Part shown: in pieces, positions 20,422-55,011 of the stretch | How the letters are laid out: every line of letters begins with the position of its first letter | How positions within the stretch are numbered: position 1 is the first letter of the stretch | Source: Nereocystis luetkeana | Taxonomy: Eukaryota; Sar; Phaeophyceae; Laminariales; Laminariaceae | Direction: 5' to 3' | Assembly: GCA_031213475.1 (NCBI GenBank) | Contig: JARUPZ010000024.1 | Span: forward strand, 6,327,324 to 6,391,323 | Length of the DNA: 64,000 nt | Made by a program: the position numbers and the translations under genes | Notes under the pieces: model-generated | Told to the model about the DNA's origin: nothing | Seen by the model: the letters and a program-made list of their open reading frames with translations, nothing else | Databases searched by the model: none

Positions 20422-20771
20422 ATGATCGTGGTTGGAGCCGTCTACAGGGCCGCCGTGGCCTGCTCTGTGGTCAGCATGGCATCCGGCGTTTACGTACCGT
20501 GTCCCGCGGGAACTAGAGTGTACTCTCTGTCGGTCTGGAGCGGGGGCTGGCTCGATGGACTCTACATGCGATGTACTGGTGGCAGCGAACAACACGCCAT
20601 CCCCGCAGAGTTTAACGAAGATCCCGGCGGAGATGCTTTCGACGGCATCTGCGCGGGCACCGGAGGCGTGCACAGCATCGCATGGGATATCCCTAGCGAC
20701 TCCGGCCATCTTCGTATGGTTCACGGCAATATCACCTGTCTGGACGACGCAACTTCCTTTTTCGCAGACAG
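20422..20771 (+). CDS. Gene 1 exon 1: signal peptide and first half of lectin-like domain
   Basis: It starts at ATG (context GTAGCTATGA) and encodes a hydrophobic leader ending near MASGVYVPC. Then follow TRVYSLSVWSGGWLDGLYM, a GGDAFDGICAGTGG turn and an N-glycosylation site in GNITC. About 55-60% of residues after the leader match exon 1 of gene 2. The donor is AGACAG-GTGATA and leaves phase 2. Third codon positions are strongly G/C-rich, unlike the flanks. Confidence 0.82.
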
Positions 20772-23700
20772 GTGATAATTTCGAACTTAATTTGGCGGAG
20801 GACTTGAGGAAGATTTCATAGTGTTGTTGGCAAAGGTTCTACCAGAATATGGCGGGTCTTGGATATCATGTCCTTCTAAAAGTTAAATGTAAGCAACCCA
20901 AATTTGTTCGATATATATATGCATGACATGGATTCATACGCATTTTTGGGATGCATACTATAGATAAGTACTGGGCTTCGTTAGCGATCAACCGAGTGTA
21001 GTCGGCGCAGGTGGTCCGCGTGCCTATCAAGATCAATATCGTGGGTTCAAGTCCCACCGAGTGCATGCTCGTAGGGACTTTTTCTTCCATAAAAAATGAT
21101 AATTATTGGCGGAAAGCGCGAGAGCGTGAGTTAGCTACATTCGATGAAAATCGACGAGCAGTGGGAATGCTGCACCCTATGCGCGACAATAATGAAGGCA
21201 CGTACCGGGGGGGAAAAGGGACGACACCCGTGACCACGGCTTGTCCAGAAGATCGCTGAGGGTACTCCGACGAGTTAGGCTGGAAAGTAAAAGTGATGAC
21301 TAAACTAAAAAACAAAAAAAAGTCGACCATTCTATTGTTGCACTTGGTATATCCAGGTGATCAGCTACGTTGTGGACCGAACACGCTAGTCCCGGTTTGA
21401 AACATGCTGTATTCCTGAGTCTATCCACGACACTAACCGCAATCTTCACCCAAAACCTACCGAGGTCGCACTACTGTGTCTCGCGGCGGTGCATGGTTCT
21501 GCGTTGTGCTTGTGGAGTCACTGTTCGAGTTAGATGTCTACGGTTGAGTTCAGGATCGATTTTGGAACCCGAAAGAGCTCACGTTAACAGAGCCGGTTAT
21601 GGAGCCACCGATAGGAAGTTTGTTTCTTCGGGCCATACTGTACGTGCTGCACACTCTCCGCAAGTCGCACGAGTTTAGCCAGAATAATCCACCTCGCGCG
21701 GTGCGAGCAATCGTCGTATGCTGTGATTTGCACGCTCAGGGAGGAACGCGTGCTGACAGGGCATCCACCTTGTTCGCTAATTCTAACGGTTTGCGATGTC
21801 TGCAGGATACCATACAATGAACTGGGCGTTAACGGCAGCCGGTCTGTCTCTTGCCAAGAAGGGGAGCACGTGCACGGGCTTACGTACGACATTGAGTACG
21901 AGGAAGACAGCAACACCCCGTACTTCCTGACATACATCGGACTCATGTGTTCAACTTCGGCACTCGGTGAGCGCATGGACAACTATGCCGCGTCGTATCT
22001 CCACACCCCGATAACATGGAAATGGTGTAGTGCGCGGTGTAATACGTGGTGCTCTATGATGCATCGATCACAGCTTGCTGCAACCCGATTTCTGGGCTGA
22101 AAACCGTATCGTTCTCAAGTACCGGGTGCTTCGCTGGATTTGTTACAGATGTGGGTTGTAGGAAACGCCGGATCGATTTCCTTCACAGTTTCTCTTCCTC
22201 AACCATACATTGTTCTTGATGTTCTTACAGTAGCTCATCGCGGCAATACAATGGAGTCCGTGGTCATACGGTAGCCTGATTTATTTCGTATTGCGACTCC
22301 TAGCAAAGGATATGAATACAAGCACATACATGTACCAGGTAGCGGGTATGATACACGTTCTACAAAACACACGAAAACATATGCTTGTTATCATCTCCCC
22401 CGGGCGAAGAAGCCCACGAATGTCTTGGGCTACAGCAAAATAAAACTCAGATTAGTGCCAGCATAAATCGGGTACGTTGGGGACCGGACAGTCCATTGTC
22501 GGGGGTTCACTCGTGTGCCTTTTTAGGCGATTAATAGAGAGATCTGAACAATGACACGTTTCACGGTCGGTGTCGTCTCCAACAAAAATCAAGTCCCATG
22601 ATTTCGCCAGACCAGTATCATATACATCTGGCAGCATCTAGAGTCTCCCAGAACAGCAATTCACTACGAGTACACTATTTACCGGGGATCATAGTTAACA
22701 GGACCTATGGTATACTTAAAAACCTATATATTTAACCATTTTTACTAACAATATTTGGTCCTATTAACTATGGTCCCCCGTATTAGCTATTATTCTGCAC
22801 TATACCGACTGGCAGCAATATCAGCCGTTCACCCGTTATGGGACCATCTGCAGACCACCCAAACGACAAAGGCGATATTGCTTACCTCCTGTAGGAAGAG
22901 CTTGTGGCAGTACGAACACCGCTATCCCCGCACTCGTGTCGCAGCCGTTACTTTTGTATTAAATGTGAACACAATCCCCACGGGGTGGTGCTGCCATTAA
23001 GCCACACCATCTCAACGCTTTGCCCGTCTGCACTAACTCCAGGCCGTACAGGTAGAACATAGCCGATGTTGTGAAAGGTTCTATACGTTCGAACAGGATT
23101 CCTTCTCGATTCGCAGAGGGGATAACCCCTGTGTCCCGCGCACCGTGCCCGTTGTCAACAACACCTACCTGCGGACCGTGTCAGATCCCATTTGTACGGA
23201 CTGCGGCAGTGGTAAAAAGCTTATGAGTGGCGAAGATCAGCCGGAATTCTGCAAGTCTCCCACCTGCACAGAGGCAGAGTGCTGCCAAACGGGTGAGTGG
23301 GAGACCCATGCTCCGGTCAAGGGGTGCGCCTCAAATCTCTCTGCGGAGATAGGTCTCTTGAGGAGCTCTATTCCTTGTCTAAGGAAACAACTCAGAGGAC
23401 AAATTAACCTGTCCGATGGTGACACGTGTTATTTTAGGGATGCTAGCACTTCTTGGCCAATTTTTTTCATCAGGTTCATGAACTTTTCAACTTAGGAAGT
23501 ACCCTATATATACTATGCAAGGTTTCCCTTCGGGATATAGGTAACGTGAAGTCCCGGGGGCGTCCCAAGACGAAAAGGGGGAGACAGGTAACACACATAT
23601 AGCTGTTGTCGGCGGAAACGGGAGTCGTGGGTTTTAGCATATATATTGCTCGAAGGAAACAGTAAATATAGTCAGCAGGAACTAAGCACTACTCTCAGGG

Positions 23701-26700
23701 TTGTCTGTGGTAGATATACATTACATGCACGCGGTACCATGGGTTGACTGCTATGCAGTTACTATCCACCACTACCCCTACTACGCAGGTGCAATACAAG
23801 TAGAAGCAGCATGGACTCTTCACAATACTACTTGGTATAGTACTACTACGACTACTAACTGCTAACTATACTATTAATACTAGGTACTACTGCTAGAGAA
23901 GACCAATCGCTCATACAATATAGACAACCCCATCTTAAAACAGAGAGGTCAATTAACCACGCGGTACCATATGTTGAGGCATGACTTCTATGCTGTTAGA
24001 CTATAATACGTATATGCGGTACAGGTAAAAGCAGCTGGAAGAGATACTACCACTACGACTACTAATTAATACCAGGGGGCTATAGTATCTGTAAATAAGT
24101 ATACAGGCTACGTAATATATATTTAGGGGAAGCTTTTTGCCCTAGGGGATCCCCTCTTACCTTAGGGGGTCCTCTCCTACCTTAGGAGATCCCCTTTTTC
24201 CTCAGGGGATCCCCACTCACAACTTAGGGGATCCCCAACAGGCTCAGGGAACCCCCGTATATCATTACCTGGTATGTTGATATTGGAATATCACCCACAT
24301 GGTGTTAGAGGATCCCTGTTAGGGGACCCCTTTTGCCTTAGGGCCTCCCTTCTTACCTTAGGGCATCCCCCACAACAGCTACACGGTATTCAGCATGATA
24401 TTGTGTCCAAGTCCTTGATATTATGAGGGGATCCTATTGGCTAGCGGGATTTCCCAACAGGCTCAGGGGATACACCCCCTCGCCTACTCAACTACATTGT
24501 TTAACAACATGATTTTCCAACGTTACACTTAGGTGGTTTTCCAATATCATTATTATGTGATATTGGAATATCATCCAATGGTGTTAGTGGATCCCTTGTT
24601 TGTTGATGACGAGAATTTCCAAAGAAAAAAAACTGAAAATAGACGCTATATCACATACGATTCAGCCGGTAGCAGTTCGCGGAGATTGTTTTCGTTGCAT
24701 GGCCTACCCACCAGGTACCAATGATCGTCGTGAGAAAAGCGAGCACACGAGGCACCGGGCACCAGGTGCAAGGTATCATAGACTACCCACCGACTACCAT
24801 CTTCAAGTCAACTACCACCACCACCACCACCGCCACCACCACCAACAGCACAGGCAACAGCAAAACCTCGTCGGCGATGATGGTGGTGGTGGTGGTGGTG
24901 GGCATCTATTAATATGAGGATAATGTGATATATATATATATGTCGTTGTGTGTTGCGTACTTCAAAACAGTCACTTGAAAACGGGTTTTGTGCTGACTCA
25001 TATATATCCCATATCCAAGGAAGAAGCGGTACCTCAAGACTAACATGCTACTGTACACAGTTGTAGGGTCAACTGGAGGCGTTCTCTTCAACAAACTAAA
25101 TGGTCGAGACAGTATTCTGAAACCAAGTAACACTACACACACGTGCGCGTGTCCCAAGTATGTGCAATAATATCGCACTGCACGACAACGACGTATGTAT
25201 CGATACGTGTATGCATGAAGACAGCATCTCGTCCGAACGCGCCCGCACCGTTCAATTAATTGCGGACCGGGATAATATATATATATATATATGCGCAACA
25301 AACAGGGAGATCTCTTTTTTCGTTCCCACTGTCTGCATGTTTGACGTCGGCAGGGATCGCGTGCGCTGCAACGATGACGATCCATATCGTTGCGGGGCCC
25401 GAGATGCTCGTGAGCGAGACTGCTGTATGACAACCCTACGCGCGAAGGTCTCGCACACTATTACGGGGGACCATAGTCAATAGGACCAAATATTGGTAGT
25501 AAAAATGGTTAAATATATACCTGGTAGGTTTTTATATAAACCATAATATGTTCTATTAACTGTGGTCCCCCGTAATATGTTCGATTTTTACAGTTTTTTT
25601 CAAGGGTACGAGGTACCGGGGTGCAAGGGTGCAGAAGGCACACAACGATCAGATACACGCTCATATCCCCAAATCGTCCCGTTTTCGTACTCCCAGCGCG
25701 TTTTTGTATAGTGACACAAAAAAATCAACGCGGATCGGGGCGGCAATTAAAAGGCGCTTTTTGTCGACGGTTAGTTATGTTTGCGGAGCTTTTTTGAATT
25801 TTCAACATGTACGTTGTTTGTTTATGTTGCGTGGTCTTCTTCGGGGCGGTACGGTGATAGGCGGACAGTGTCGAAGCTGGGGCCCGAAGGAAGCACACGA
25901 TGCTGCAGCATGCTATCAAAACTTGTTTTCCCCATTTTTCCCCCCATTTATTACTGTTCACATGTTTTCGTTGGCTTTTCTTGGATGGGCGAGAGTGTGA
26001 GCTTGCTAAATGGCATGAAACACCACGTGCAGATTGAATGCTCTACGCCAAGTGTCATCAAAATGAAGCAAGTACCATGGGGGACAACGGAATATGCATG
26101 GGACCACCGTCTTCGTCCTCTATGTCGCTGACAGCATATCCTCATTACCTCCCACCACAGTAAATTAAGCTGGAGAGGAAAAAGTGACCGCAGGGGCACC
26201 CTAAGGGTATATTCTACCCGGTACCAAAATATACTCACATTGAAGATCTCCACTTGCAGCAAGTAGAGTGTGTACATGACTCCAAAGCCGCTTTTGGAAT
26301 TTTGAATAAATTGTCGCAAACACGTCGTCAGACGCCAGTACATCTCTGGCTGAGTGGTTGATGTGACTCTTTGAAAGCTGTGTGCTGTGTACCCGTTATC
26401 AGAGATTGTGTGTGTGTGTTTCCTGCTCAACAGTGTTGTATTTCATTGCCGATTGCGATTTCGTTTAAATGGGCTTCCTTGCCGTGGGGGCGATAGGGCC
26501 TCTTATCCCTTAATTCGACCAATACCTCATACATAGGCCACAAATATATCATCGGGTTCACCGTACACACTTGTAACAGCAGTGTTTGGGCAATATATAG
26601 AGCTCGATTAATATGAGGCCCCATGGAGTATTACTGTAAGTACGCTCCCATCGTATTACGGGGGACCATAGTTAATAGGACCTATGGTATACATAAAAAC

Positions 26701-27274
26701 CTATATATTTAAGCATTTTTACTAACAATATTTGGTCCTATTAACTATGTTCCCCCGTAAAATATTGTAGAACAACGATGGTGTTGCAAACGCCTTGGGT
26801 GCTTCGTCGGTCGAGGAGCCGCGTCGCAAAGAAGCGTGCGAGAAAAAACACCCCCCCCGTCACCGTGCCATGGTTGGGGGGTATGGAACCAACGCCCATC
26901 ACCAAAATCATCACGTATAATAGTCCTGACCAACCCCGCGTTCTAGTTGCTGTTGTTTTTTATCCAACCATGAGTAGCATCAACGACTGCGTCGATAAGC
27001 AACGAGCGCCCGACGACGCCATTCTAAAGCAATATTTTAATGCCCCGAACCTGCCTCCTGACCTCGCCGACGCGTGTCATTTTCTGCCATGTCTGCTGCA
27101 GACCATTACGCCACGAAGGTGGCCGTATCGGTCGGTCTCGGTTGCGGATTGGCCGTCCTTGCAATTGGCGGATTGTTCAGGTGGGGCTACGAGGGATTTA
27201 GGGATTCAATTGGGTCGTGTAACTGGTGGACACCCACCGTTTTAGACGATGCCCCGGCCGCACCTCGAGGATGA
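20422..27274 (+). CDS. Lectin-like gene 1: type I membrane protein, 4 exons, 263 aa
   Basis: Exons 20422-20771, 21806-21966, 23185-23292 and 27102-27274 sum to 792 nt, exactly 264 codons with the stop. Intron phases are 2, 1, 1, the same as in gene 2 at 45510-55011. Order in the protein: signal peptide (about residues 1-21), a cysteine-containing beta-rich domain carrying VWSGGWLDGL, a six-cysteine module, one transmembrane helix and a short tail. The motif resembles the exposed strand of jacalin/ZG16-type beta-prism lectins, so carbohydrate binding at the cell surface is plausible but unproven. Introns 2 and 3 carry three MITE-A copies. The model rests on exon homology to gene 2, matched phases and GT-AG borders. 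The last exon is placed by phase and hydrophobicity, because its sequence is not similar to gene 2. Confidence 0.72.
20998..21066 (+). other. tRNA-like segment
   Basis: GGCGCAGGTGGTCCGCGTG gives a D-arm (GCGC/GCGT) and GTGGGTTCAAGTCCCAC a perfect T-arm, but acceptor and anticodon stems do not pair. A T-run follows at 21077. Probably a SINE head or tRNA relic, in intron 1 of gene 1. Confidence 0.35.
21806..21966 (+). CDS. Gene 1 exon 2: second half of lectin-like domain
   Basis: Acceptor GATGTCTGCAG, donor CTCG-GTGAGC; 161 nt entering in phase 2 and leaving in phase 1. It encodes SVSCQEGEHVHGLTYDIEY, YEEDSN and YIGLMCSTSALG. Gene 2 exon 2 has the same layout and differs in length by exactly two codons. 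The GE-HVHGLTY and YIGLMC pieces fit the E-x-I-x-G and I-x-L-x-F strand pattern of jacalin-type domains. Confidence 0.78.
22675..22786 (+). mobile_element. MITE-A copy 6 (gene 1 intron 2)
   Basis: The left end is worn (TATTTACCGGGGATC); the right end reads CCCCCGTATTAG. Sits 399 bp before gene 1 exon 3. Confidence 0.88.
23185..23292 (+). CDS. Gene 1 exon 3: six-cysteine module
   Basis: The exon is 108 nt, in phase 1 on both sides, so it can be gained or lost without shifting frame. It encodes PICTDCGSGKKLM and then EDQPEF, spacing C-x2-C-x15-C-x4-C-x4-CC. The acceptor is CCGTGTCAG and the donor ACGG-GTGAGT. It matches gene 2 exon 3 in all six cysteines and in QPE-C. The module family was not recognised. 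Confidence 0.78.
23728..23885. repeat. Direct repeat, unit 1
   Basis: CACGCGGTACCAT, GTTGA and a TACTACGACTACTAA stretch recur at 23957-24085. Confidence 0.55.
23957..24085. repeat. Direct repeat, unit 2
   Basis: Second copy of the 23728 unit, about 229 bp on, in intron 3 of gene 1. Confidence 0.55.
24128..24500. repeat. GGGGATCCCC-type short-unit array
   Basis: About a dozen variants of YCTTAGGGGATCCCC occur at 20-30 bp spacing, each a self-complementary core. A longer phrase (GATATTGGAATATCA plus TGGTGTTAG-GGATCC) occurs at 24278 and again at 24558. Confidence 0.7.
24811..24902. repeat. Opposed CAC and GTG arrays
   Basis: About ten CAC triplets are followed 35 bp later by eight GTG triplets, so the DNA or RNA can fold into a hairpin. 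Confidence 0.7.
25458..25577 (-). mobile_element. MITE-A copy 7 (gene 1 intron 3)
   Basis: Inverted copy: the AACAATATTTGG half is on the left. A small insertion (ACCTGG) sits in the centre. Confidence 0.88.
26239..26349 (-). CDS. Candidate exon antisense inside gene 1 intron 3
   Basis: A 111-nt segment, phase 0 at both ends, between CAACCACTCAG and a consensus donor (AAT-GTGAGTAT). It encodes PEMYWRLTTCLRQFIQNSKS and GFGVMYTLYLLQVEIFN. G+C at third positions is about 62%. If real, an unrelated minus-strand gene overlaps gene 1. No homology seen. Confidence 0.35.
26654..26762 (+). mobile_element. MITE-A copy 8 (gene 1 intron 3)
   Basis: Forward copy, right end GTTCCCCCGTAAAATA with one base exchanged. 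340 bp upstream of gene 1 exon 4. Confidence 0.9.
27102..27274 (+). CDS. Gene 1 exon 4: transmembrane helix and tail
   Basis: Acceptor GTCTGCTGCAG, entering in phase 1; the joined codon is GAC. It encodes HYATK, a hydrophobic helix VAVSVGLGCGLAVLAIGGLF, then RWGYEGFRDS and a tail ending DDAPAAPRG with a TGA stop at 27272-27274. There is no clear sequence match to gene 2 exon 4, but position, phase and architecture agree. A coding-looking stretch in another frame just upstream (26943-27080) means this exon may be longer or preceded by one more. Confidence 0.6.
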
Positions 27275-27405
27275 GCGCGCGTCAACTCGGACGTTAAAAG
27301 CACCATGCATACCGAGTGGGACTACGTATTTAGGCTGTATGATAAGGGCGTACTTTTCCGTGTGGGTGTACATGGTGTCACTGCCTGGAACGGTGACTCG
27401 GAAAA

Positions 27406-30400
27406 CTGCAGGGGCAGACGGCGCGAGATAGAAGAGCTGCGCAACGGACAACATAGACAGTAGCAAACCCCATGTATGTGGAACCGTAGAGCCAAACCTC
27501 TGCATGGGAGTTGAACAGACAAACGCCGAAGGGTCAAGGCGGGGGAATAACGAGCTGCCCTTTCGGGTTGATTGGTCCGAGCATTCTCACCAATCGTGTC
27601 TGCCTCGATTTAGGCGTGCTGTAATAGGCGTAGGACGGTTTGACCACCAGTTTGCTGACGGGTTGAGCTCGTTCACTGCGCAAGTTGAAGCAAGGTACCA
27701 CTGGCGATGTTTGGTATTTTTCAGATATATATGGCTGAGCTTTGGGCTTCCTGATCAATTTGCACTATATTTGTTTCTCAGCGTCATATTTCCAGCATGT
27801 AGCTACCAAAAAGAGGAGCCTTATAAAATTCTAGGCCCGCCTGCTATGTCGATTGCCTCGTAACATATTTAGGACCACCTCTCGTTATGAGGACCGATTA
27901 CTCGAACTTGAAGATACATGAATGTCGATGCACAGTGCAGCACTAGAAGGGTTAATGCCTGGCAGGCTGTACATAGATGGATCATATTTCTAAAACATCC
28001 AAGAAGAAACATGTAATAAGAGGAAGACCAACGGGTTTCTTGTACGGGACCTCCAAGCGTCGATGTCCGGTGGCTTCGTCGTAAGGTCAGCACTTTGCAA
28101 CCACTGTTCGATAAATACCCCTCGATTGAGCTTCCTTGTCACTTACGGTGTAGGTTTCTTGTGCTACGAATAGGAAGAGACGTAAAGGTTGATTGACATG
28201 GAGTGGATTTGGGAGACTAACAGAGGGATCGTATCATATATCAACGGCGATGAATTGCACGACGGCGAGTTGGGGTTGCTCTGGAAGCTGAGTAGGATGT
28301 GCGCCGCAAAGTAGACCTCGATGACAGATGTCGAGATATGAAAAGTGAAGGATTCGCCAACGGTTGTAAACAGAGGCCGTGATCCAATCGCGCTGGATAC
28401 TGGATTGTTCACCTTCGAAACAGCAATAATTCCAACGTCACGTCCAGTTCTTGAGATTAACGATCTTGAGGTCATGTATTTGGACAAAGGCTCGACAAGA
28501 CTTGGGACCTATCAAAATCTGAGCAGAATAGCCTCGGAAAGGACACGGGTAGGACATACGGAGAAGAACGTGGGCCGGGTTTCGTTTGTTTTGGCGTTTT
28601 CGCTCCCCAGAACAGCAAACCTCCACGTATCCAGTGTAGAATATTGTACGCCGCAATACACGAAATATATCGTAAGCACTCATCTAAAACAAGATCTGAG
28701 CGTCTTGAGGTCGGTGTGTGCACCATTTCTGTATTTCACTTTGTAAAAACGTACCTTTGCCTGTGGTTCTGTTGCCCTAGGTTCAGCATAGTCGTATGTG
28801 CAAGGTGCGTGTTGTGGCATCGCATATATATGGTGTGGTGTGCATAGGGCACGGGAGGGTAGAATTAGTGTGCTGTGATGTACCTGGTGGCATGGTTTGA
28901 AATACACATGGTAAAGTCCACTTTCACGAGGGCGCTCCATATAATGCTAGCTGCATTCCACTGTTTGCTTGATACAGCGAACGCCTGCCCAACACTGTTC
29001 CATGTCAGCGGAGTACAACTATTCATCTCCTCAGAATCTGGGATCAAAAGATTATTCAGTACCTGGAAACTTTGTGACTGCCCTAAACAAATTGATTTCG
29101 CATCCACCAACTGGCTTGATGATTCTTTTCTTTTTTCAAAAGACGCATTCTACAATAGAGGTCATCATGTTCTTTCTGAGGCTCCCCACTGGAAGAGCTC
29201 CGTATAACCGCATACTAACTTTAGCAAACATCAAATGGCATCCCGATGAATAATCCCCGGTCACCAGTATAAGAAAAAGCCATTTTTCAACACAAGATTG
29301 ATATTCTGACGATTTTGGGGTAAGGAACCCCGTCATCTACAGACCATTTGAGAAGAAATGAGCTACCTCTATCGTAGAACGCATCAAACCAGAACCCGTA
29401 TTGATTGCATTTGCGTTAGGGGTTTTAGACACTGTTGCATGCCATTTTGTAGCCAACCGAGGGAGCGCCCCCCACCACCTCCGCCCACAAGGGCGCTCCA
29501 GGTACAAACAGGGCCCAGCGGTATTGTACATGTATCTCCCCAAATTATAGGAACGTTGACCCCGGTCCCCATAAAGGCCCGATGTTGCCGTGCCGTACAA
29601 AACCCTTCAGAATCAGACTTGGTCAATGGATTGTCTGTGTGTTGTGTTTGAGATTTGAGGTCAGCACCAGTGCCACCTCTCTGCCCACCCCGGGGGCTAA
29701 GATCGCCCATACCCGGGAATACAATATAACACCGAGCCAAACGACACTTCCCGGAATTGGAACCGCGCTGTGTCAAAACACATACCGTACATTATACGGT
29801 ACGGGTGCACCCGCTATTATTGAAGCGCCCCGCTTGTCAACCTCCAATTAGACACGTTCTACGCTATGGTTTACCTTTTTTATTTTCGAGCATCCTCACG
29901 CGCGGAGCTTCATACCTCGCTCAAACAGCCATGCTTGTTCTAGACGAAGACGTGCTGTAGCCCGACGAACCACTATCCCTGAGCCTGAGTAGAACTTCAA
30001 TACTATCATGGAACACTGATGACACTTCGACAACATTTGCCAGATAGATCCTAAGTGGTAACTTGCGTCCATACCTGGCGCACAAACACAGCTCTTCGAA
30101 TTAAAAAAGATCGCTCAATCCATTGAGCAATACAGCATAGGTACACGGCACTCCAACGGGTCAATCGAAGCGGATCCACTCATAGTCAACGTAGAAGCTT
30201 GATTTTATTGAGGACGCGAGGCAAACGACCGAATTGAGGGTAGTATACGAATCAACTACGCGCAAGGGAACGAAAGGTAGGGTTTGACCCTATGCCGTAT
30301 CCAAGAGGTCTCAGAGATCCCAAGCTGAACAAGAATTGAAGCGACGGCGGAATGTTAGAATTGTAGTATGCGCACCAAATAGCGGGAACGGAAGGAAAGC

Positions 30401-31254: not shown

Positions 31255-31255
31255 T

Positions 31256-38199: not shown

Positions 38200-40160
38200 T
38201 CGAGTAGTATAATTATCTGTTTCATGCAGTACGTCGGCGCTTGCTTGTAGATCGTCAAGAAACCACCGTTTGCATGTCGCAGTCTTGATAGCGTACTGTG
38301 CATATTGCTACCGCGTGTATCGTTTGAAGTATCCCTTCAGCAATAGTATGGTTCACTTGTAATGATACTAATAGCATCAATCCTTTTGCAGACCCTGGAC
38401 AAAAACTATTGAATGAAAGGCGCCACCGAGGCGAGCAACGACACCAAAAACACTTTCATCGTGGATTCTTCTGCATTTAGTTGCAGGGTGTACCTGTCAC
38501 GTCGACAGGAACGCAGAAAAGGGGCCAAACTAGCTCCCGGAATAGTCAGGGCAGCGTGTAGGTTCAACACCGGGGAAATAACTAGAACCGAATGCGGAAA
38601 CACATTATGACCCGTCCGTGGGACTGAATTGGATATATCTTGTGTAAAGAGGCGACACGATATCAGGCACCGGGTCAAAAGCTCTTTTTTTTTTAATCGT
38701 CACTTTTACAGTGAATCACACTGGTGAACCCCCGACCTCATCGAGCCTTGTAGGACTCCGACTGTGGAGTCCTCCTTACCCTCCATCCAACCCCGCTGCT
38801 TCTACGGTTTCCGCGCCTAAACTCAACGCAGAAATGTTTGGTAGACGGCACGAGGGCAGTAGCGAGGTCCATCTCAAACAGGCGGGAATGGGTCGAAAGA
38901 TTTCCTTGGAGGCGGCGCAAGAACAATATTTATGAGCTTTACGGGACTGAGGATGGGGTTGAGGTTGAACTGGGTTAGAGGAGGGTAAGGGGTGTCGCAG
39001 CCGACATGGTTGAATGATGCCTTCGTTTGAGATACCAACAGGATCGACTATTACGGGGGACCATAGTTAATAGGACTAAATATTGTTAGCAAAAATGGCT
39101 TAATATATATGTTTTTATGTATACCATAGGTCCTATTAACTATGGTCCCCCGTAATACGTATGTTCTGATGTGTACGTATGGTTTGGTGCTCGAGTATAC
39201 CAGAGGGGGGGCACCTGACCACCCTGTAAACGCTGTATTGCGTAAAGTGGCCTTTGAGGGTTTTGATGGAAATATGCTTATGTTTTGAGTTTGAGCGTTG
39301 TGGCCGATAGTTTGGTGCATGTGCTTCAGGACAGGGCACCGTAAAACCCGTGCAAGCATGCAACGGTATCGTGGGAAATATTGCATTCTGCCCATTTATC
39401 TTCTGTCAACGCCGCCGGTATGACGGATGAGAAGATGGTATCACAACATGTCCTGCATTGTCCACCGATAGTAGCCCTGTGCTGCCCTCGGTGAAAGCAT
39501 AGCCTGAAACCCGTTAGACCAGTCTCTCCGAAACGCCACGGTGAGGATCAAAGAACGCTAAGCCATAGGTGTAGCACATCGCTGCCGTGCACCTGGAGAC
39601 CTAGCCGAGGGTTGGCACAGCCGCTTGCGTTGATAAAGAGCTATTGATGTTTTTTTGACAAAATTGGTTCGTACATTGCAATTCATCGTATATCGCAATT
39701 CATTCAGCCGAGCGCATCTCGATGCCTCTTGGCAATTACGCTCAATAGGGCGCGTCAGCCGTTATCGGCGGCGCTCACAACGAATAATCTACCGAAATGT
39801 TGTTGGCGGAAAAATCTCTAGGCCATGACGATTACCGTAGTCTCGGCCGACGCGACAAAAAACAAAATCATTGATTAGGCGGCTGCGGTTTAGTGCGCGT
39901 CCCTCAGAGACGAAGTGAAACTACGATGATACCTCGAGCAGGGGCGGTTCAGTGCAGGCGAAGGCAAGTTCCATCGTATTCTCCCACAGACGACACCTTC
40001 CCGTCAACTGCTGCACGACAACAGGGCTTATCCCCCGGCTATGGTTGGGCGCGCGCTGGGGCTCGTCGAAACCCGGCTGGAGGCGTTGGTCCTGGCGTAC
40101 CGTCAGCGGTCCCATCTCGTAGCGGGCCTATTTCCGTATCACCCTCGTACCTGTTTGTAT
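38200..40160. other. Intergenic with MITE-A 9
   Basis: A short + frame 38413-38610 begins KGATEASNDTKN with G/C-rich third positions at first but has no partner. Nothing else seen. Confidence 0.4.
39048..39157 (-). mobile_element. MITE-A copy 9
   Basis: Inverted, near-intact copy with TA borders in a gene-free stretch. Confidence 0.92.
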
Positions 40161-40166: not shown

Positions 40167-40277
40167 CTATTACGGGGGGCCATAGCTAATAGGACCTGTG
40201 GTATCCACAAAAACCTATATATTTACCCATTTTTACCAACAATATTTGGTCCTATTAACTATGGTCCCCCGTAATAG
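40167..40277 (+). mobile_element. MITE-A copy 10
   Basis: Forward, near-intact copy; about 700 bp from the AAA exon. Confidence 0.92.
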
Positions 40278-42163: not shown

Positions 42164-42411
42164 GAGGCGTTCTACGATAGGGGCTCACCCTGAACTTTCT
42201 GAGGCTTCTCACTCGAGGAAATCCATACCTCACCCGAAAACTGACTTCAGCAAAAGCTCAAATTGTGTCCCGATGAATAATACCATGCCCCAAGCATACA
42301 GTCACGTCACGTTTCGAAACAAGAATGGCATTCTGACGGTTTTGGGTTAAGAGTCCCGTCATTAAGAAACCATTTTAGCGGAAATGTGCTACCTGTATCG
42401 CAGAATGCGTC
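42164..42411 (-). mobile_element. MITE-C copy 3
   Basis: Inverted relative to copy 1. The complementary ends extend outward to CCGCGGA on both sides, suggesting a terminal repeat of about 22 bp. Confidence 0.78.
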
Positions 42412-42874
42412 CGCGGTTGAAACGGCAAGGCGACTACATACTTGCCACTCCGGCCTTCTATCAGGCAAACATAATAGCTTCTCCGATACACCCAGAATTT
42501 GGCGTACGCGCCGCATGGTAGGCAGAAGGGGATCGGAATAAAGGTGCACCGAGGCCCAGCAATTCCCTAGGTTCACCAAAACCCAGGTACCCCAGGAGCC
42601 AATATGGGAAACTCGGGGTTTTCCTCCTCTCGGTTGTGCTTTGGAGAGGGCTACTGAGCGTGGATACGTTCTGCAGTGTCCCGTCTCTCGGTTTCGTTTG
42701 TTTTCTGCAGGGCCAGGAAAAAGGGGGGGGGGGGCATACGCATTTATTTCTTGCTTGCCTAAGCCTTCACACTACTGACCACGCATCCATTTCGAGACGG
42801 AGGGGGGGAGGTATGCACTCGACGTTTGTCGCCCTTCTCGCGCTCGTCTGTTCGTCGTAGGGTTGAGCGGGTTT

Positions 42875-43030: not shown

Positions 43031-43504
43031 CTACACCCCGACCACAAAAAGAATTTCAATGGCAGTGGACTGATCACGACGAACGGATCGGCATAATACA
43101 GCACCAAGCACGAATAAATGATACGTACATTGCACGGGCCACGAAATGATCAGTACCGTATTTCGTGACCCTTTTTTTCATTTGTTTTCAGCAGAGACAA
43201 GGTTGGTATGCTTTTTTATTTGTCCATTGTACACCGTTCATGTCTACGTGTATAGTGCCGTTTGCCATATATATAATTGTGATGGCAGCAGGGCGAGACG
43301 CGCGACACGCCGCTGCCCCTACCACTACCAAGGACAACCGGACCGAACGGTAGCAGCAGACGCAGCAGCAGCGGCTATAGGGGGACGAAGAGCGACCACC
43401 AACGACAATCATCGGCATCGTTTAACACTGCAAAAAAACACACCAGAAGTCGGTTGTGCGTGCTTTCATATCGCATGCCCGCACCATACCCCGGTCCGCC
43501 GCCC

Positions 43505-45509: not shown

Positions 45510-45685
45510 TTAGTTGACCCTTGTCTGGTCCTCCGCGGTGAACACTGCGACCCCATCGGTGTTCTCGTTCTTCTGCTTGAATTTCTTGTGCATCCACGCG
45601 CTAGCCGAAATGATCATGGTGGCGAATACGGTGCTAACGACGCCGATTATAATGGTCGTCGTCGTGGATTCAGATTCTTCGTCGT
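45510..45685 (-). CDS. Gene 2 exon 4: transmembrane helix and charged tail
   Basis: Acceptor CATGATCCGCAG, phase 1 (joined codon GAC). It encodes an acidic stalk DDEESES, a helix TIIIGVVSTVFATMIISASA, the stop-transfer sequence HKKFKQK and a tail ending AEDQTRVN with TAA. Third positions are G/C-rich. The anchor type (single helix, basic inner flank) marks a type I membrane protein. Confidence 0.78.
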
Positions 45686-48600
45686 CTGCGGATCATGCAG
45701 GCACGGGATATATCAACCGTCGTTCAGGGCGGTTAGATAACGAGCTGAGGATGTCGAATGAGTGTTTTCCGATACCATGAAACAAACGTAGTTCACGGTG
45801 GGGGCGATTAAGATGAAATCACAGAATTTGGTTCCTGTACGTGCGTGTTTTTGTGACTGACATAACTCCATGACTAAAACAAAATCCGTCGGCAGGTGTT
45901 GACCCACTGGCGTGTTCTGCGCAAGCGGTGACTACAACCGTCGCATTGTTTCGCTGCCGGTACTGGCCTTCGCTCATTGCGCACAGGTTCAGCATTTATT
46001 TCCACCACCGTACGCGACATAACCGAATGATCTCTTTGTTTTTTGTATGGCCTGCGCCGTTTTTTTATATCATTGTTGAGACTCGCCCCTTAGATACGTT
46101 AAAATTATATCACAGTGGCGTTTTTTCGCTGAGCACAAATGCATACCTGGTAGCTGTTTATTGAAAACACGAACGAACTTGGACTTTAGAAATCTCAAAA
46201 TCTGGTCAACACTTGTCGCGTGATGTACTCGTCGATGCCTATGTGTATTTATTTGCCAACTACTTTTCTCGCACCTCGGAAAAGCGCGAAGACTCGGAGA
46301 ACCCACGCGGGGATTTTGTTGCTGTCTCGCGTTCTCCCGTTGTACACCGTACGTTAGAAGATCGGAAAAACGGTAGAACTGTACCAAAAAAATTCAAAGA
46401 CATCGTCGTGGTTCCAATATTTCCTCACACTACCAGGAGTACCCAATGTACTTGCCAACACCAGCGTCTATCTCAAGGTACATCACTACCTCTCGGTGCC
46501 CTGTGTCCAGATTGAGAGCTGCGGGCACGCTTTAGTACGGCACGCGTTACGCGTGACCGTGTCTCGTCCTTTAAACCGCTGGGCGCAATAGCCTCACCCC
46601 CTTCATGTTGGGCTGCACACTACCAATCAATGAATCATAACAATGCAGGTCATACGTTTAGGTTAGAAGAAAATATAGGAAGACCCGATACCTCAGATGA
46701 ATCCCACCACCTAAATGCTGCACATACATGTAGTGGGTTTGCGTACTGTTTTTCAGTGGCACTGATGACTTGCCATGACGCCTACTGCAGACACCTTCTG
46801 GGTTCGGTCGTCGTCTCATTTTGTGCTGTCCAGTATAGTACTGACACTACACAAATAGCACACAGTTGTAGTACACGTCGTCGCGAAACAACACACAGGC
46901 TCTGAACAAATGACTTGGTGCACCCCAGTACTTTGACAGTACGCACTAGGTCCAAACTGCTGTACTGGTGGGTACACCCAGCTACTGGCAGTACGTCGTA
47001 CCCAGCGTATTGTGTTGATACTCTGCCGCACTGCGGTGACGGCCTGAACAAAGCTCAGACGCCTAGCAGTCTTACGGCAGGCTCTGGAGAAGCACTTTTG
47101 ATGCGCAACATATAGCTCGGCAACCGATGAAGAATTGTCAGCTGAAGAGGGGCTAGACGCTCTATATATTTAGTATCCGATGTGTTTGCTACGGTACAAT
47201 TATCTCCGACAGCAGAAATACTCGTGTACTAGACCGTACACAAGGTGAAGACGGTCGATCTATCGGGCTGAACTCGCCATGTTTTTTCAACGTGTACGGC
47301 GTTGGGTGAGAAACAGAGCTCTTCTTGAAGGCAACCTCATCATGAACAGTGCGCGCTACATGCCCCTACCATGCCTACCGCAGCTATTACGGGGGACCGT
47401 AGTTAACAGGACCTATGGTTTACATAAACACCTATATATTTAACCATTTTTACTGACAATATTTGGTCCTGTTAACTATGGCCCCCCGTAATAGCTGCAC
47501 GCTCAACAAATTTACCTTTTAGTTCGCAGCACTCCGTCTCTGTGCAGCGGGGCAACTCGCAGTATTCCGGCTGGTCTCGGTCGCTCTTGAGCGCCGTGTT
47601 GCCGCCGCAGTCCGTGCAGATTGCATCTGTGTGCGTTTAGGTTTTGTCGTCGGGTTTCAGCATCCTCCCGACTTGGTAATTTGCAAACAAATACGGGCGA
47701 GAAATTCTATTCTGCACGTACGTCGCAACAAGGTCGGTGGACGGTCGGGAGTGCGATGCTCTCATTTTATGCCTATTACGGGGGACCATAGTTAACGGGA
47801 CCTATGGTATACATAAAAACCTACCGGTATATGTTCAATCATTTTTATTCACAATATTTGGTCCTGTTAACCATGGCCCCCCGTAAAGGTTGTCTTTACT
47901 ATACCGGCCCAATCAAGAATACTGTTTCGACCGCGCTCATTAACTGACCAACTACCGGCACCCTTAGTCGGAATAACCCACACTGAGGATTACTCTTACC
48001 GTTGAGGGCGGCGATATCCAGATATTTTGTCTCAAGCCGCTCCGACCCACACGGTGGAGGGACCACCTTCAACCTTGACTATGGGCACAGCCCTGAGAGC
48101 CTCCAACCGTTTTTGTTGTTGATAGTTGCACCGTCGTGGGATTCTGGGCTACTCCGCGACCACAAACAAACAAATTTTCGGTCGATTGTGAGTGAGGCAC
48201 AGACCCGCTCGCCAGACTGACGTGAACGCGGAAATTAAATTAAGGGCCAGATACAGCCCCCCCCCCCGTGCCTCGCTAAGGGTGCCTAGCGATTGGTGCA
48301 AGTAAAGTCTGCCTGGTGGCTGAAAAGCGAACGTGATCCATTCTGCCATTTTAGGGGTGCGAGGGTGCGTGGTCATACGATTGCGGCAATGCATGATATC
48401 GAGTACCCCCCCCCCCTCTCCCCCGGCTCTGTGAACACCCCACGTGGCCCGTTCCGGAATTGTAGTTGTTTTCGTTGTTTTTGGTATAATATCAAGAGAC
48501 TGGTTCCAGGCACGCCAAGGCATGTCTAAATAAAGAGCCTGCACAAATGATGGCAGAAAGGACTGCGCAGGATCAACAATATTCGGTTAAGCTTAACGCT

Positions 48601-51600
48601 AAAAGTGGATTTCATATCGTGTTGAAAAATACCGTACAATGCCCGTTTCTTCCACTAAGGTCAATGGCTTACGTACCTGAATTAGACTCAGCCACTCCGG
48701 GCACACCTTCCGCGCCAATACAGCGAGATGGTAGCGGAAGGGGATTCAGGGTTTCGGGTTGTTCTTTTCGCTAGTTATCTAGCGCCCAAGCATTCGTCAT
48801 TTCCAACAACCCGAACACCCCAGACAACCGACGGATCAAAGCGAAGTACTAAACACCCCGTCCATACACCCCTCGACACGAGGGCCCTTAAAGTGTGTGT
48901 GAAGGTTCAGAGTCTTGAACACCGAAAAAATGGCTTGAATTCCTGATGTCAACCTTATTGTTTGACGGGATCGTTGAGTCATCGGGTTAGGTGCACATCA
49001 TCTTTGAAACGTCAGCCGTTTCGCCAAAATGGAAGATTGCCAAGCGGAAAGGCCTTCGGAACCTTTCGATGCACCCCGGTCTCAAAATGATTCGAAGCAT
49101 GGGTCCCACGAGCCATGCACCTTGTAATATCCTAGGAAATAATAGGTCTTTCATGAGCGTTTTTACATAAAAACTCAATGTGGAGCAACGTGATTCAATC
49201 CAGACGTACGTTCATCTATTCATGACGCGCGTGCCACCATAGAGGTATACACGCGTGGAATGTTTGACCGAAATATTCAGGAGTGACGCTCCTCGTCAAA
49301 CCGAGAAACTACTCGATATTGTTGGATTACCCCTCACAAATATGTGTGTTTACCTGCTACGACATGTATTGGTCAACCGTATGACTAGGCCAGTTGTTAT
49401 ATTTTCACGTTGTTTTCAACCCATCTATTGCTTTTGATCTTATTCTCTAGTTCCTTCCTCCTTATCTCAGATCCTGGGCCACATAGCGGGCTGTTGCCCC
49501 AGCCCCCTGCCTACGTACGTTCGCGACATGAGTTTAACACAGGTTCTTATCTCGTCATCTAGCGTGAACTAGTGCGCGCAGGTGTTCAGCGCTTTCTTCA
49601 GGCCAGGTTTCGACAGGATAAAAGGCCTGCTTCGTGCGTCTTGAACTCGGCAGATATGCCTGTTTGTCAGGTGCGAGGTTCGGGCACCATCGTACTGGGA
49701 GCGCCAGACACGGTTGTGTATTCTTTCTCGGGTTTCACGTTCAAAGTAGTCCCAAGGTCAGTGGTCGGGCGAGGGAGACCTCATGAAGCGTCATGACAGC
49801 AGCAATACCACGGTAGCGGTGTTGCTGATTTTCTTGCGCTCTTCGCATTCGGAGCTCACGCTATCACCCGAAGTATGACTTCGAAGAGATTTCTTCGCGC
49901 GACCAGACCGACATTCCTTTGCGCTGGTTCCATCCCAAATATTTTACCCAAAGTATCATACCAACCAGTATGCTAATCTTTGCTAACTTGTTACAGGTAT
50001 ATCCGCTTGAAAATGTCTCTTCAAACGGCAAAACATGGACCCCCATGCCCTCACTAGGCAAAACATCGATCCCCTTGCCGTGGGATGAGTCTGAGCTCCC
50101 ATGCCCCTCCTAAAACGTTGTGCACCGGCGTCCATAGCAGTCGTGCTGTGAACTCACCGAGCGCGGAAGACGAACATATGAAGCCCACGCTCGTGATGAA
50201 GTACTGGTAGCGACTGTTGCTGTCTTCCGGGTAGTCGAGGGTATACGTGAGGCCTTGCACGTACTGCTCCTCCTCGCAGGAGACGGTGCGAGTACTTGTT
50301 ATGTCCCAAAAATCATACGATTGACTGCGCCGGGACGCAAAAAAAAAACGGAAACAAAACGCGAGGTGGAAACATACGCTTCAGAGCATGAGAATATGGA
50401 TGCCGTCTTCACCTGCAGCAAGGTCGTTTCCCTGACCTTTACGGTAGCCGTGGTCACACAACCGCAAAACCAAGATCTGGAACCAAAACGCACAAACACC
50501 GCAGAACCTACCTGCCCGCCAGGGATCTGTGAGGGTTGTGGTATACCATCCTATAATATCCGTTGTAAATATTGATGACATATATATCTAGATTCTGTGG
50601 ATATTGAATCAACATCAACGTCGGCGGTAGTCACCCGGTCTGGACATTTTTCAACACACATCTATCTATCTGGGCCTGAGGGGAGATGCGCTTCAAAGTA
50701 GGAGAGGTCCCGGAACCCGTACCCAGCAATTGGGGCAGTACCACATCGGGAGAAATTTCGACGGCGAGTCAACCCGCGGTAGGGGTTGCACGTTTCGGGT
50801 CAAAAGTTTTCTGACCGACTGAAATCCTCAAGTGAGGAACAATTCACTCGTATATATATATTCGTTTAGGACTACTATTACGGGGGGCCATAGTTAATAG
50901 GACCAAATATTGTTAGTAAAAATGGCTCAATATATGGGTTTTTATGTATACCATAGGTCCTATTAACTATGGTCCCCCGTAATAGCGCATAGAAGGGCCG
51001 GTCGGGTGGCGTAAACATTTTCTTTTTTAGTACTGTATCGGATGAGATATTGAGCTCCTGCCGTGAGGGGCTCAGAGAGTTATGGTGCACCCCTACCGTG
51101 GGATGGCTCCGGCAATATCAGTATCACTCACAGTATATATATACCAAAGCACTTACCGCATGGTGTTTAAGCATATATATGTATCGCGGAGGCCGTAGGT
51201 ATGGGGCTTATGGTTAAACCGGAGACAGCATTTCATCAGCCAAGAGAGGAGACTTTTACTTGGAAGCGGTGACGGTTCGAGTGCTTTAGTGGTTAGGACA
51301 TTGGGAAACGCTTTCTCATCGATGTACCTGCTCGTGGGAACCGACAAGCAGACCACTACCATATATAGAGTTTTCTTTGCGTATGTGATTTGCCCTATTA
51401 TTGCGACCTCAGCAGCTGGTAGGAGCTAAACCAGACTAGCAAATGTTACGAAAGATTCGTCCACCATTGTTGCTACAACTGTGCGTTTGTATTTGCGCGT
51501 CAAAACGAGCCTTTCGAGTCGACCCTACTCACGCTGCATCCGCCCAATGCATTTGACCTCTGTCAATACGTCCTACTGACTCGTGCAGCAGTAATTTCAG

Positions 51601-54600
51601 GGTGACTTTCGCACTTTTAATTTATGCGCTGCTTGAATGTTGTTGTTGTTCTCACATTAACTCTCTGACGAAGGAGTCCGTGGTCACACAAAAAGGTGCT
51701 GGAGCCCTAGGAAGATCGGAAAAACAAAAAAAAATCGAAGATTCGGCTGCCTCAAAATACACGAGACGGAAAAAGCGCACACAAGATAAAACCAATGTGC
51801 AAAACTGAACTAACTTGGCCGCGGGTATATCCTCTCAACTATAATATAGAAGAGTACCCCCGTTCCCATCACTAACCAACTCGTGGCTGCTGACTACAGC
51901 GGATGCTGTCTGAAGTGCTGCCTGCACCGTACGAAACGCACGGTAGTCGTGAAAACGAAAGAGGCACACACCTGCCTGCTATCTGGAGTGCTGTCAGAGT
52001 GAAGACTCGCGGATATGCAGTGAAAAAAAGGAGCAATCAAACCTTTCTGCCACACGAATATCAACGATCGCCATCTCTTCCTGGACTGTCTGACACAAAA
52101 AGGTGCAGCACAGTTATGATACCACGTCCCTGATAATTGCGTAGGTTATTCCCCATGAAGGGTATACAACTCGTTAAACTACAAAAACCAGTGACGAGTA
52201 CCGGTAGATACTATTCTGCCTCGTGAAAAACAAAACCAGGAAAAAACAAACTATGACTGCTTCTCTCGGGATGATAGTGTGCGCGCAAATCATGGGTCTC
52301 CATGCACCGTCTTCCTGCCGCTCTTCATGGCCGCATCATCGCCTTGGCCCAATCCACCCGCTCCTTTGCGCGTGCACTCGTTGCCATTCCCTTCCAGTCG
52401 TTTCCCTTTCTCCGTCATCCTGAAAAACAAAATGCTCCTCGCACTTGCGGTTCTGATCTGGGAAATAAAAATTGTCGCGCAGGGGGAAGTCAATCCGTCT
52501 CTTCCCCGCACGTCGACGCTCAGTCTCCCTCCTCCCTCGTCGTCGAATCCAGCCTCCTACCGGCGCAATAGACTGTGCCGTAGTGTGGCCTGTGGTGGCG
52601 CCTGCCTCCGCGCATGGACACCCCGATTGAGCATTGCTGCTCTGCCGCAGCTGCCTAAAAAGACGCGCGAATCGTAGGTCTCCGTGCCTGACGCACCACG
52701 TACGACCCAACTCTACTGCCGCCTGAGCCTCGCGGCCACAGGCAGCAGCAAGAAGGTATCACTCCTTGAGGGTGAGTCCGGCCTTACACCCGCCAGAAAG
52801 ACCTACCCCACTCGCTATTAGCCTGATAGGGCATGCCTCGCAGCATTCCTTGCCGAGGCAGCGAGGGGAACTGCTATCTTTGTGTGACTGCCATAGAGTT
52901 TCGAATGGCCGGTGATAGCGCGATACCTGTACAATCAAAGCTGCATGTATCCGTCAATGTATCTTTCTTAGGGCCGCATGTATATGCTATTGTTGACAAC
53001 CGAATTTTTCCAGGGTTGACACTGAAAACGTTTTCACGGAGCTGTCTTGTGTTCCGGTATTAACAGACAAATCGGAAAAATGGGAACGAAGCCTAAAATG
53101 AGAACCAAGCCGTATCTCCAGAACCATGTGGTGTATCAGAGAACCAAAATGATCCCGCGAAACCCCTTGGCCAGCCCTGTGAGATGAGCTCGTCAGAACG
53201 GTCATGCTCCATATCGTGCCTTCGGGTGGGCGCAAAAAGCGATATACGCTGGCTCTATTGTGATTTCTCTAGAAGATGCTGGCTACCGCGGCGATGCCGA
53301 GGACTTCCAGCCTGAGCGACAGCTCATTCGAAGGCTGCTGTACAGCCCCACAGGACTGTCAACTGTTTTTCTTGGAGTTGTACACAATTGGTTTGCTTTC
53401 TAAAAAAACCCGTCCGTTCCCATTTTTTGTTTCGTTCCCATTTTTCCGTTTTGTCTGTTTATTCTTGATACATGTTTTTTTCTGGTTTCCCCGAATGTGC
53501 TTCCTTACACTCGGGCTGCTCGCAAACGTTTCGAACTGTATTATCTCGGTTAAAACTGGTCAACGAGTACTGAATTATAATCTAGAATTTGAAACTTGGA
53601 TTATAAACCACATCTACGTCACTTTCCCCCCCCACGAAACACCTTGTATAAGCGTTCGACTTCGGGTGGAAGTTGTACTTCATTGGCATGAAAGTTAAAA
53701 CTTTGACGCTCATGAACTCGCCCCCCACGGGGGCGGGGGGGGGGGGGGGGGGGGGGCGTGATATTTTAGATCCCAAATACCAGCTTCCGAAAAGCTAATA
53801 TAAGCTGACCTTATTTACATTGGGTTGTTACGGATATGTTCTAAGGTGTTGATGTTTTTTTCCTCTATACGTTTGAAAACCGTGAAAAGCAGGAGAGACG
53901 TCCATGGCGAATAGCGGCAATCAGCAGGGCGTTCACGAACAGGGAGGGGCCCGGCTGGGCTATGAGCGACCAGCACTCTCTTCCCCACACCACGTCTCGT
54001 GCATTGTATTTTTGTCGGGATAATCCTTCGGGCGTTTCGTCCCTCGTCCTTTCCATTCGAAATGCCCCTGCCCACGAAGTTAAGCGCTCTCAGCAGTTGA
54101 TTCCCGTTTCTTTATATGTCTGGAAATATAGCTAAACACATATGACCCACCAGCGGTCCGACCTTCATATAAAACACTTTTACGGGGGAACATAGTTAGT
54201 AGGACCTATGGCATATATATATTAAAACCTACATATTTAAACATTTTTACGAACAATATTTGGTCCTATTAACTATGGCCCCCCGTAATAACAGCATTCA
54301 AGGTTACTACCAGACGACCGGAGTGGCCGGCCGTTAGATCGATGTTTAAAAGAAACTAAAAACAAGCCTGTTATATATATTTCAAGTTTTGACGAAACAA
54401 TATCAATCTACTGGTTAATTTCTGCTTCCGCCTCGTGGCCCTATCCTTTTTTTTCGTTTTCCCCTCGGCATACCTCCGTTTTTGTTACAACCGAGTGAAT
54501 AATCGATCGAGCTGGCTTGATGTGTGTGGAGTTCCCTTTGTTGGATACACCATAACGACCGCCTGCGCTGATCACACCCATGCGTCGTACAACACCCAGA

Positions 54601-55011
54601 CTGTTTACAACAGCCCCGTCCCATTCCCGCGTCCCTGGCCTAGGTTACCATCCGCCTGACTCACCCGTTTGAGAAGTGGTAGGTTTGGTTGTCCAGGCAC
54701 GTGATGTTGAGGTAGACCATAACGTAATAGCTTTTGGGCACACCCCATTCCATACTCTGCACGCCTCCAGTGCCCGCGCATATACTTCCTGCTTGTTCCC
54801 CTCCGGGATTGTCGTTAAACTCTTGTGGGATGGTCTCCTCTTCGCCGTCACCAGTGCATCTCATGACAAGCCCATCGAGCCAGTGCCCACTCCAAACGGT
54901 CAGGGCGTACACCCTTGTTCCGGTTGAGCATGGCTCATTGATGCCCGACGATATGGCGACCGATGCCGAGCAGATAACGATCAGCTTGAGAAAGGTCCGA
55001 GCCCCCGACAT
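45510..55011 (-). CDS. Lectin-like gene 2: type I membrane protein, 4 exons, 266 aa
   Basis: Exons, in transcript order, are 55011-54665, 50324-50158, 47626-47516 and 45685-45510: 801 nt, exactly 267 codons with the stop. Phases are 2, 1, 1 as in gene 1, and the first three exons are homologous to those of gene 1. The protein has a signal peptide (about residues 1-23), a beta-rich cysteine domain with VWSGHWLDGLVMRC, a six-cysteine module, a transmembrane helix and a 25-residue charged tail. It is probably a cell-surface recognition protein; the beta-prism lectin assignment is a resemblance, not a proven match. Introns are 4340, 2531 and 1830 bp and hold four MITE-A copies, a copy of the left-edge repeat and an unrelated-looking tail exon at 52290-52419. 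Orientation is opposite to gene 1, with tails facing each other across 18 kb. Confidence 0.75.
47384..47494 (+). mobile_element. MITE-A copy 11 (gene 2 intron 3)
   Basis: Forward, intact terminal repeats. Only 21 bp separate it from the end of gene 2 exon 3. Confidence 0.92.
47516..47626 (-). CDS. Gene 2 exon 3: six-cysteine module
   Basis: Symmetric phase-1 exon of 111 nt encoding DAICTDCGGNTAL, RDQPEYC and LPRCTETECCELK, with the same C-x2-C-x15-C-x4-C-x4-CC spacing as gene 1. Acceptor CGCACACAG, donor AAAAG-GTAAAT. A MITE-A lies 21 bp beyond its donor and another 146 bp before its acceptor. Confidence 0.82.
47773..47886 (+). mobile_element. MITE-A copy 12 (gene 2 intron 2)
   Basis: Forward copy; right end shortened (CCCCCCGTAAAGG). 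With copy 11 it brackets gene 2 exon 3. Confidence 0.88.
50158..50324 (-). CDS. Gene 2 exon 2: second half of lectin-like domain
   Basis: The acceptor is preceded by a pyrimidine run (TTTTTTTTTGCGTCCCGGCGCAG) and the donor is CTCG-GTGAGT; length 167 nt. It encodes TRTVSCEEEQYVQGLTYTLD, YPEDSN and TSVGFICSSSALG. It aligns with gene 1 exon 2 with conserved cysteines and the same splice phases. Confidence 0.82.
50875..50985 (-). mobile_element. MITE-A copy 13 (gene 2 intron 1)
   Basis: Inverted, near-intact copy about 550 bp before gene 2 exon 2. Confidence 0.92.
51600..51808 (+). CDS. Candidate tail exon with KGAGALG motif (repeat-D copy 2)
   Basis: The sequence after TAATTTCAG reads a hydrophobic stretch VTFALLIYALLECCCC, then LTKESVVTQKGAGALGRSEK and a basic tail ending KTNVQN with a stop. 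The whole segment is homologous to the minus strand near 190-450, where one frame reads LLSKAGSRW and then RKGAGGLGRSQK. Sequence similarity continues past the stop into non-coding DNA, so this may be one part of a dispersed repeat rather than a live exon. Confidence 0.3.
51650..52050 (-). repeat. Dispersed repeat D, copy 2 (inverted)
   Basis: Inverted relative to copy 1 and located in intron 1 of gene 2. It includes the KGAGALG reading at one end and the conserved hairpin-forming CCGTGCGTTTCGTACGG at the other. Confidence 0.7.
52290..52419 (-). CDS. Candidate tail exon with KGAGGLG motif
   Basis: A strong acceptor (TTTTGTTTTTCAG) opens a terminal exon encoding MTEKGKRLEGNGNECTRKGA, GGLGQGDDAAMKSGRKTVHG and DP-TGA. 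Codon-position G+C is about 62/50/69%. The motif KGAG-[GA]-LG-[RQ] recurs at 327-584 (-) and 51600-51808 (+). It lies inside intron 1 of gene 2 on the same strand and enters in phase 2, so exon 1 of gene 2 could splice to it in frame and give a short protein without anchor; nothing proves that this happens. Confidence 0.4.
53721..53756. repeat. C6 and poly-G (22) pair
   Basis: CCCCCC followed by a G-run, able to fold or form a quadruplex. Confidence 0.9.
54177..54290 (+). mobile_element. MITE-A copy 14 (gene 2 intron 1)
   Basis: Forward copy with a worn left border (TTTTACGGGGGAACATAG); right end intact. Confidence 0.88.
54665..55011 (-). CDS. Gene 2 exon 1: signal peptide and first half of lectin-like domain
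   Basis: The start codon sits in a good eukaryotic context (GAGCGGCGATG). The leader is FLKLIVICSASVAISSG, followed by TGTRVYALTVWSGHWLDGL, IPQEFNDNPGG, SICAGTGGVQSMEW and the sequon NITC. The donor is AACGG-GTGAGT, phase 2. It pairs with gene 1 exon 1 along its whole length. The region upstream is CT-rich with no clear TATA box. Confidence 0.85.

Follow-up and report, generated by a model that had tools for sequence, protein, structure and literature searches.

A 64,000-nucleotide stretch of the genome of the kelp Nereocystis luetkeana (assembly GCA_031213475.1, contig JARUPZ010000024.1, positions 6,327,324 to 6,391,323 of the forward strand; hereafter the window) carries two paralogous genes, which lie convergently, tail to tail, and a decayed third copy. 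We interpret them as a small local family of four-exon genes with introns in phases 2, 1 and 1, whose products are likely to be type I single-pass cell-surface glycoproteins. Each protein would be led by a signal peptide, followed by a six-cysteine domain of ~150 aa that exons 1 and 2 encode between them and by a six-Cys module from exon 3, while exon 4 would supply one transmembrane helix and a short tail without a known domain. A first-pass annotation of the same DNA had proposed an inverted pair of “lectin-like receptor” genes; its four-exon structure and its small family, now two intact-looking copies and one relic, are supported, as is its architecture once this is worded as leader, cysteine-rich ectodomain, Cys module, helix and tail. 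The exons of the two genes are as follows.

20422..20771, plus strand: exon 1, with the start codon, leader and first four ectodomain cysteines (350 nt; open reading frame, GT border, phase 2, homologous to 55011-54665).
21806..21966, plus strand: exon 2, with the next two ectodomain cysteines (161 nt; AG/GT borders, phases, homologous to 50324-50158).
23185..23292, plus strand: exon 3, the six-Cys module (108 nt; AG/GT borders, phases, homologous to 47626-47516).
27102..27274, plus strand: candidate exon 4 (P-type anchor), with a hydrophobic helix, tail and stop (173 nt; phase-1 acceptor; total 792 nt; counterpart in the third copy weakly supported).
54665..55011, minus strand: exon 1, with the start codon, leader and first four ectodomain cysteines (347 nt; open reading frame, GT border, phase, homology to plus-strand exon 1).
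50158..50324, minus strand: exon 2, with the next two ectodomain cysteines (167 nt; borders, phases, homology).
47516..47626, minus strand: exon 3, the six-Cys module (111 nt; borders, phases, homology).
45510..45685, minus strand: candidate exon 4 (M-type anchor), with an acidic stalk, hydrophobic helix, basic tail and stop (176 nt; total 801 nt; remnant with its own AG in the third copy).

Exons 1 to 3 of the two genes are homologous, keep the same order and share GT-AG borders and intron phases, as had been claimed and as direct reading and a six-frame search of the window confirm. With the plus-strand ectodomain as the query, this search recovered the three minus-strand exons separately (E 2.6e-38, 2.3e-13 and 6.4e-13). 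Once the anchor exons are added, the coding lengths given earlier are exact, at 792 nt (263 aa) for the plus-strand gene and 801 nt (266 aa) for the minus-strand gene. The statement that no exon after the first shows up as a long frame is wrong for the plus-strand gene, whose exons 2 and 3 lie inside open reading frames (ORFs) of 125 and 116 aa, respectively, and are therefore visible in a simple frame list; exons 2 and 3 of the minus-strand gene are unlisted at 100 aa.

The spliced ectodomains are identical at 104 of 200 residues (52%), and all 12 ectodomain cysteines that follow the leader are aligned (12/12) and would presumably pair. Potential N-glycosylation sequons occur at residues 103 and 126 of the plus-strand protein and 102 and 108 of the minus-strand protein, one pair being aligned. 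In the first 204 codon pairs of the alignment, which take in the leader, differences at codon positions 1, 2 and 3 number 70, 50 and 92, and the ratio of nonsynonymous to synonymous divergence (dN/dS) is 0.32 by NG86, 0.29 by YN00 and 0.29 by maximum likelihood, with dS above 1. When 20001-25000 was compared with 47000-55300 by blastn (E up to 1), it matched portions of the three exons, a ~110-bp inverted repeat that is dispersed and one further stretch at E 0.12, so that introns 1 and 2 are without other blastn-detectable homology. The exon-by-exon likeness, which is far beyond chance, shows at the level of sequence comparison an old duplication of protein-coding exons that has been under purifying selection. 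Because the two anchor exons are unalike, the homology of the pair is demonstrated for exons 1 to 3 only.

The anchor exons had been given earlier as lengths without coordinates; 27102-27274 (plus) and 45685-45510 (minus) come from our scan for an in-phase acceptor followed by a hydrophobic stretch, and are almost certainly the ones that were meant. At a hydropathy of at least 1.7, the scan to 36000 beyond the plus-strand gene gave 10 candidate rows and that to 34000 beyond the minus-strand gene gave 19, many of them sharing a frame, and the first row downstream of each gene is the proposed anchor (27102 and 45685). A strict filter (in-phase acceptor, pyrimidine fraction of at least 0.65, hydropathy over 19 residues reaching at least 2.1 inside the first 30, frame of 25 to 75 aa) left three plus-strand and four minus-strand sites in the whole window, two of the latter in one frame, and both anchors are among them. 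With so few such sites, it is unlikely, though not absurd, that chance placed one anchor within the first 3.8 kb and the other within the first 1.8 kb. Provided that exon 4 is used, its 19-residue hydropathy of 2.19 (plus) or 2.16 (minus), followed by a stop, would give each protein a helix and a short tail. Both anchor exons are supported as candidates, that of the minus-strand gene better than that of the plus-strand gene. At the other end of the protein, the most hydrophobic 12-residue window of the minus-strand product is at residue 10 (2.45), in the predicted leader.

The third copy occupies 12535-11233 on the minus strand. Remnants of exon 2, exon 3 and an M-type anchor follow one another in this order, and a P-type anchor remnant lies ~100 nt further on.

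12383..12535, minus strand: exon 2 remnant (aligns globally with both intact copies of exon 2; shared CTCG|gtgag donor at its end).
11742..11858, minus strand: exon 3 remnant, with an indel-broken frame and its cysteines lost (local alignment).
11442..11545, minus strand: M-type anchor remnant with a phase-1 AG acceptor (best non-self match in the window of the minus-strand gene's anchor).
11233..11337, minus strand: putative P-type anchor remnant, with an inverted-repeat element next to its end (strongest non-self match of the plus-strand gene's anchor within the window, score 54).

Global alignment of the exon 2 remnant to each intact exon 2 scored above all 1000 mononucleotide shuffles, and the exon 3 remnant gave local scores of 28.4 and 31.0, where 60 shuffles per comparison peaked at 14.8 and 15.0. 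For each intact anchor, the strongest non-self match anywhere in the window is its remnant in the third copy, and this holds reciprocally, with the two remnants in order behind exon 3. For the M-type remnant, the matching stretch (11540-11442) scores 59, and the exon start at 11545 follows an AG that preserves phase 1; in a window-wide protein control none of 400 shuffles reached this score (1/400 when shuffled within thirds), and in a DNA-level control within 11741-8741 two of 1000 shuffles were as good. These figures stand in place of an earlier control of 60 shuffles per anchor, none reaching the score, which was too small. That both remnants lie directly behind exon 3 on the same strand adds weight beyond the shuffle figures. 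The third copy thereby appears to support both anchors, the second (P-type) weakly. The P-type remnant ends within ~10 bases of the inverted-repeat element. A second candidate M-type remnant (minus strand, 10997 to 10881, score 45) was rejected, as full shuffles reach 54.

Several results weigh against this picture. The plus-strand and minus-strand anchors score 20 against each other, which 823 of 2000 shuffles matched, and a search for a further exon shared downstream of both intact genes returned repeats only; the last exon is therefore uncheckable between the intact genes. Neither an M-type exon in the plus-strand gene (to 36000) nor a P-type exon in the minus-strand gene (to 36000) was found. 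Exon 1 of the third copy was sought and not found, and its exon 2 is marginal by local alignment (17.0 versus a shuffle maximum of 15.8, and 15.0 versus 16.0; 60 shuffles), while the borders used in the global alignment were picked by hand from the AG and the donor and its shuffles preserve base composition only. The P-type remnant is marginal window-wide (6/400 shuffles reach its score, 13/400 when shuffled within thirds); within 11741-8741, 796 of 1000 DNA shuffles are as good, and since its best DNA match lies elsewhere, its assignment depends on the protein comparison. The acceptor of the M-type remnant is two codons closer to the matching stretch than in the minus-strand gene. The plus-strand leader is outside its protein's eight most hydrophobic windows, and no named relative was found in the viral, phage and prokaryote collections described below.

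One anchor type was found in each intact gene and both in the third copy, which suggests that the ancestor had two last exons as alternatives. We tentatively propose that the ancestral gene joined one ectodomain to either of two such exons, each of which supplied a separate transmembrane helix and tail, that the living copies each retained a different anchor and that the dead copy shows both in tandem; we would place this proposal well short of an even chance. Somewhat nearer to even is the alternative that the third copy consists of two merged decayed copies, one per anchor type. Two merged relics would look identical to one relic with both anchors, and exon 1 of the third copy was not found, so that entire exons can be lost and nothing but the anchor might survive of a second copy; the ~100 nt that separate the anchor remnants and the failure of our searches to find a further exon 2 or exon 3 remnant speak against a merger. 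If the third copy does reflect the ancestor, it would resemble exon 17 of insect Dscam1, which PMC1397879 describes as a pair of mutually exclusive variants that cover the transmembrane domain: a single ectodomain could be joined to either of two membrane-anchor exons. Unlike in Dscam1, each intact gene here shows one anchor type and the choice would be read from the third copy; the likeness meant is one of exon layout.

It is unlikely that the proteins are instead secreted and unanchored, with intron 3 retained, or another exon used, after exon 3 and with the helix exons belonging to nothing. In the plus-strand gene the frame does stay open past exon 3 to 23492, and the dissimilarity of the two anchors would fit. 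Retention in the minus-strand gene, however, would end in a stop after ~14 codons (frame end 47475), both copies of exon 3 end at a GT donor in the same phase, and anchor-like remnants stand just behind exon 3 of the third copy.

The lectin label is unsupported: none of the tests was positive, and Pfam and PDB gave no significant match. Searched against Pfam with E up to 10, each ectodomain had a single, unrelated zinc-finger-type match far below the cut-off (E 0.17 and 0.31), and no Jacalin or VMO-I profile was matched, with the limit that HMMER filters discard most matches above about E 0.1, so weak ones may be lost. A profile built from the two sequences matched no PDB chain at E 10, and phmmer with the minus-strand ectodomain returned only two chains, at chance level (E 0.42 and 0.91). 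An AlphaFold model of exon 1 from the two-sequence input contained four strands and one short helix at a mean predicted local distance difference test (pLDDT) of 45.9; it was too poor and was therefore not used for a fold search.

We nonetheless weighed the specific proposal that the ectodomain is a true lectin of the beta-prism type (jacalin or VMO-I like), which would bind cell-wall or microbial sugars. Each protein has three Cys-bounded segments of 31-41 residues, and these, together with the strands of the poor model, would fit a possible three-segment, strand-rich domain, a presumed likeness to VMO-I and jacalin. In 12 cross comparisons among the segments, the best scores were reached by 11, 35, 41 and 56 of 500 shuffles, and 11 of the 12 (all except the lowest, 11/500) fail at 5%. 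Unlike VMO-I and jacalin, these proteins would also carry a Cys module, a helix and a tail. Given the database searches and the low pLDDT as well, we consider a beta-prism lectin improbable. That both intact-looking copies are already dying, as relics in the manner of the third copy in the same window, is very improbable, against which stand frames open over four exons in both, ectodomain cysteines fully retained and a dN/dS near 0.3.

Relatives were also sought outside the window. In viral contigs the full profile gave 55 pattern stretches and the Cys module 40, none of them confirmed; in bacterial and archaeal genome contigs the full profile gave 37, again none confirmed; and tblastn against phages at E up to 1 gave no match. 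As the collections searched comprise viruses, phages, bacteria and archaea, these negatives say little about a eukaryotic family.

Since the Pfam scan of the ectodomains revealed no catalytic or signalling domain, their likeliest role would be in recognition or adhesion. The ectodomain probably binds an extracellular ligand, and the protein may act in adhesion, in recognition or as a co-receptor; the word “receptor” in the first-pass annotation would follow from the predicted topology. Brown-algal ROCO genes are candidate immune receptors, with one leucine-rich repeat (LRR) per exon and exons that are all of phase 2 and shuffled in arrays, according to PMC11378527. The present genes resemble them in placing putative repeat units on separate exons of one intron phase and in their proposed recognition role. 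They differ in that no LRR or ROC domain was found in Pfam for either ectodomain, while the ROCO exons, as described there, are uniformly of phase 2 and shuffled in arrays.

The introns of both genes contain copies of an element resembling a miniature inverted-repeat transposable element (MITE). Fourteen copies of ~110 bp were found in the window, with typical ends TATTACGGGGG...CCCCCGTAATA (28 end matches at up to 3 mismatches, 0 expected); seven lie in introns of the two genes and none in their exons.

8472-8573, 9930-10039, 10254-10356, 11113-11223, 16245-16347, 22680-22782, 25462-25574: MITE-like inverted-repeat element, copies 1-7.
26657-26759, 39052-39154, 40171-40273, 47388-47490, 47777-47885, 50879-50981, 54181-54287: MITE-like inverted-repeat element, copies 8-14.

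The element was sought in viral contigs and not found. A 33-base pattern taken from it had one match among the genome contigs, located terminally on a contig of 8.2 kb from a Saprospiraceae metagenome-assembled genome (L001 1-92), and this copy is 79-95% identical to the 14 window copies. As the same contig carries a bacterial-looking ORF of 2317 aa, it may be chimeric and include DNA from a related host. The protein profile of the gene family found nothing in this genome.

Other features of the window were also noted. A 614-aa open frame at 2448-4292 (plus strand) contains hydrophobic stretches, has no above-cut-off match in Pfam and looks like a membrane protein gene without introns. Of ten other long ORFs in the window, only one matched Pfam, at E 0.073 and below the cut-off. 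A 265-bp repeat at 58246-58507 and 62232-62496 (96% identical) is possibly a recent mobile element; a dispersed repeat of ~250 bp (70-74% identical) occurs at 6600-6851, 29142-29385 and 42164-42413, and a second short palindromic family of ~100 bp at 9533-9635, 18636-18730 and 61282-61371. ARAGORN, run with the bacterial code, called a tRNA-Arg (anticodon tcg) at 55043-55134 (plus strand), just upstream of the start codon of the minus-strand gene and on the opposite strand. Rfam gave no match in the window at the gathering score and no tRNA at 55043-55134, and the call may therefore be false.

If our interpretation is correct, a surface-protein family without a Pfam match would be added to a eukaryotic genome. 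The duplicate pair may have split two anchor exons between its members, which would be a small case of one outer domain coming to be coupled to different membrane anchors. Should the tails have no particular function, this would be an ordinary gene family worth annotating.

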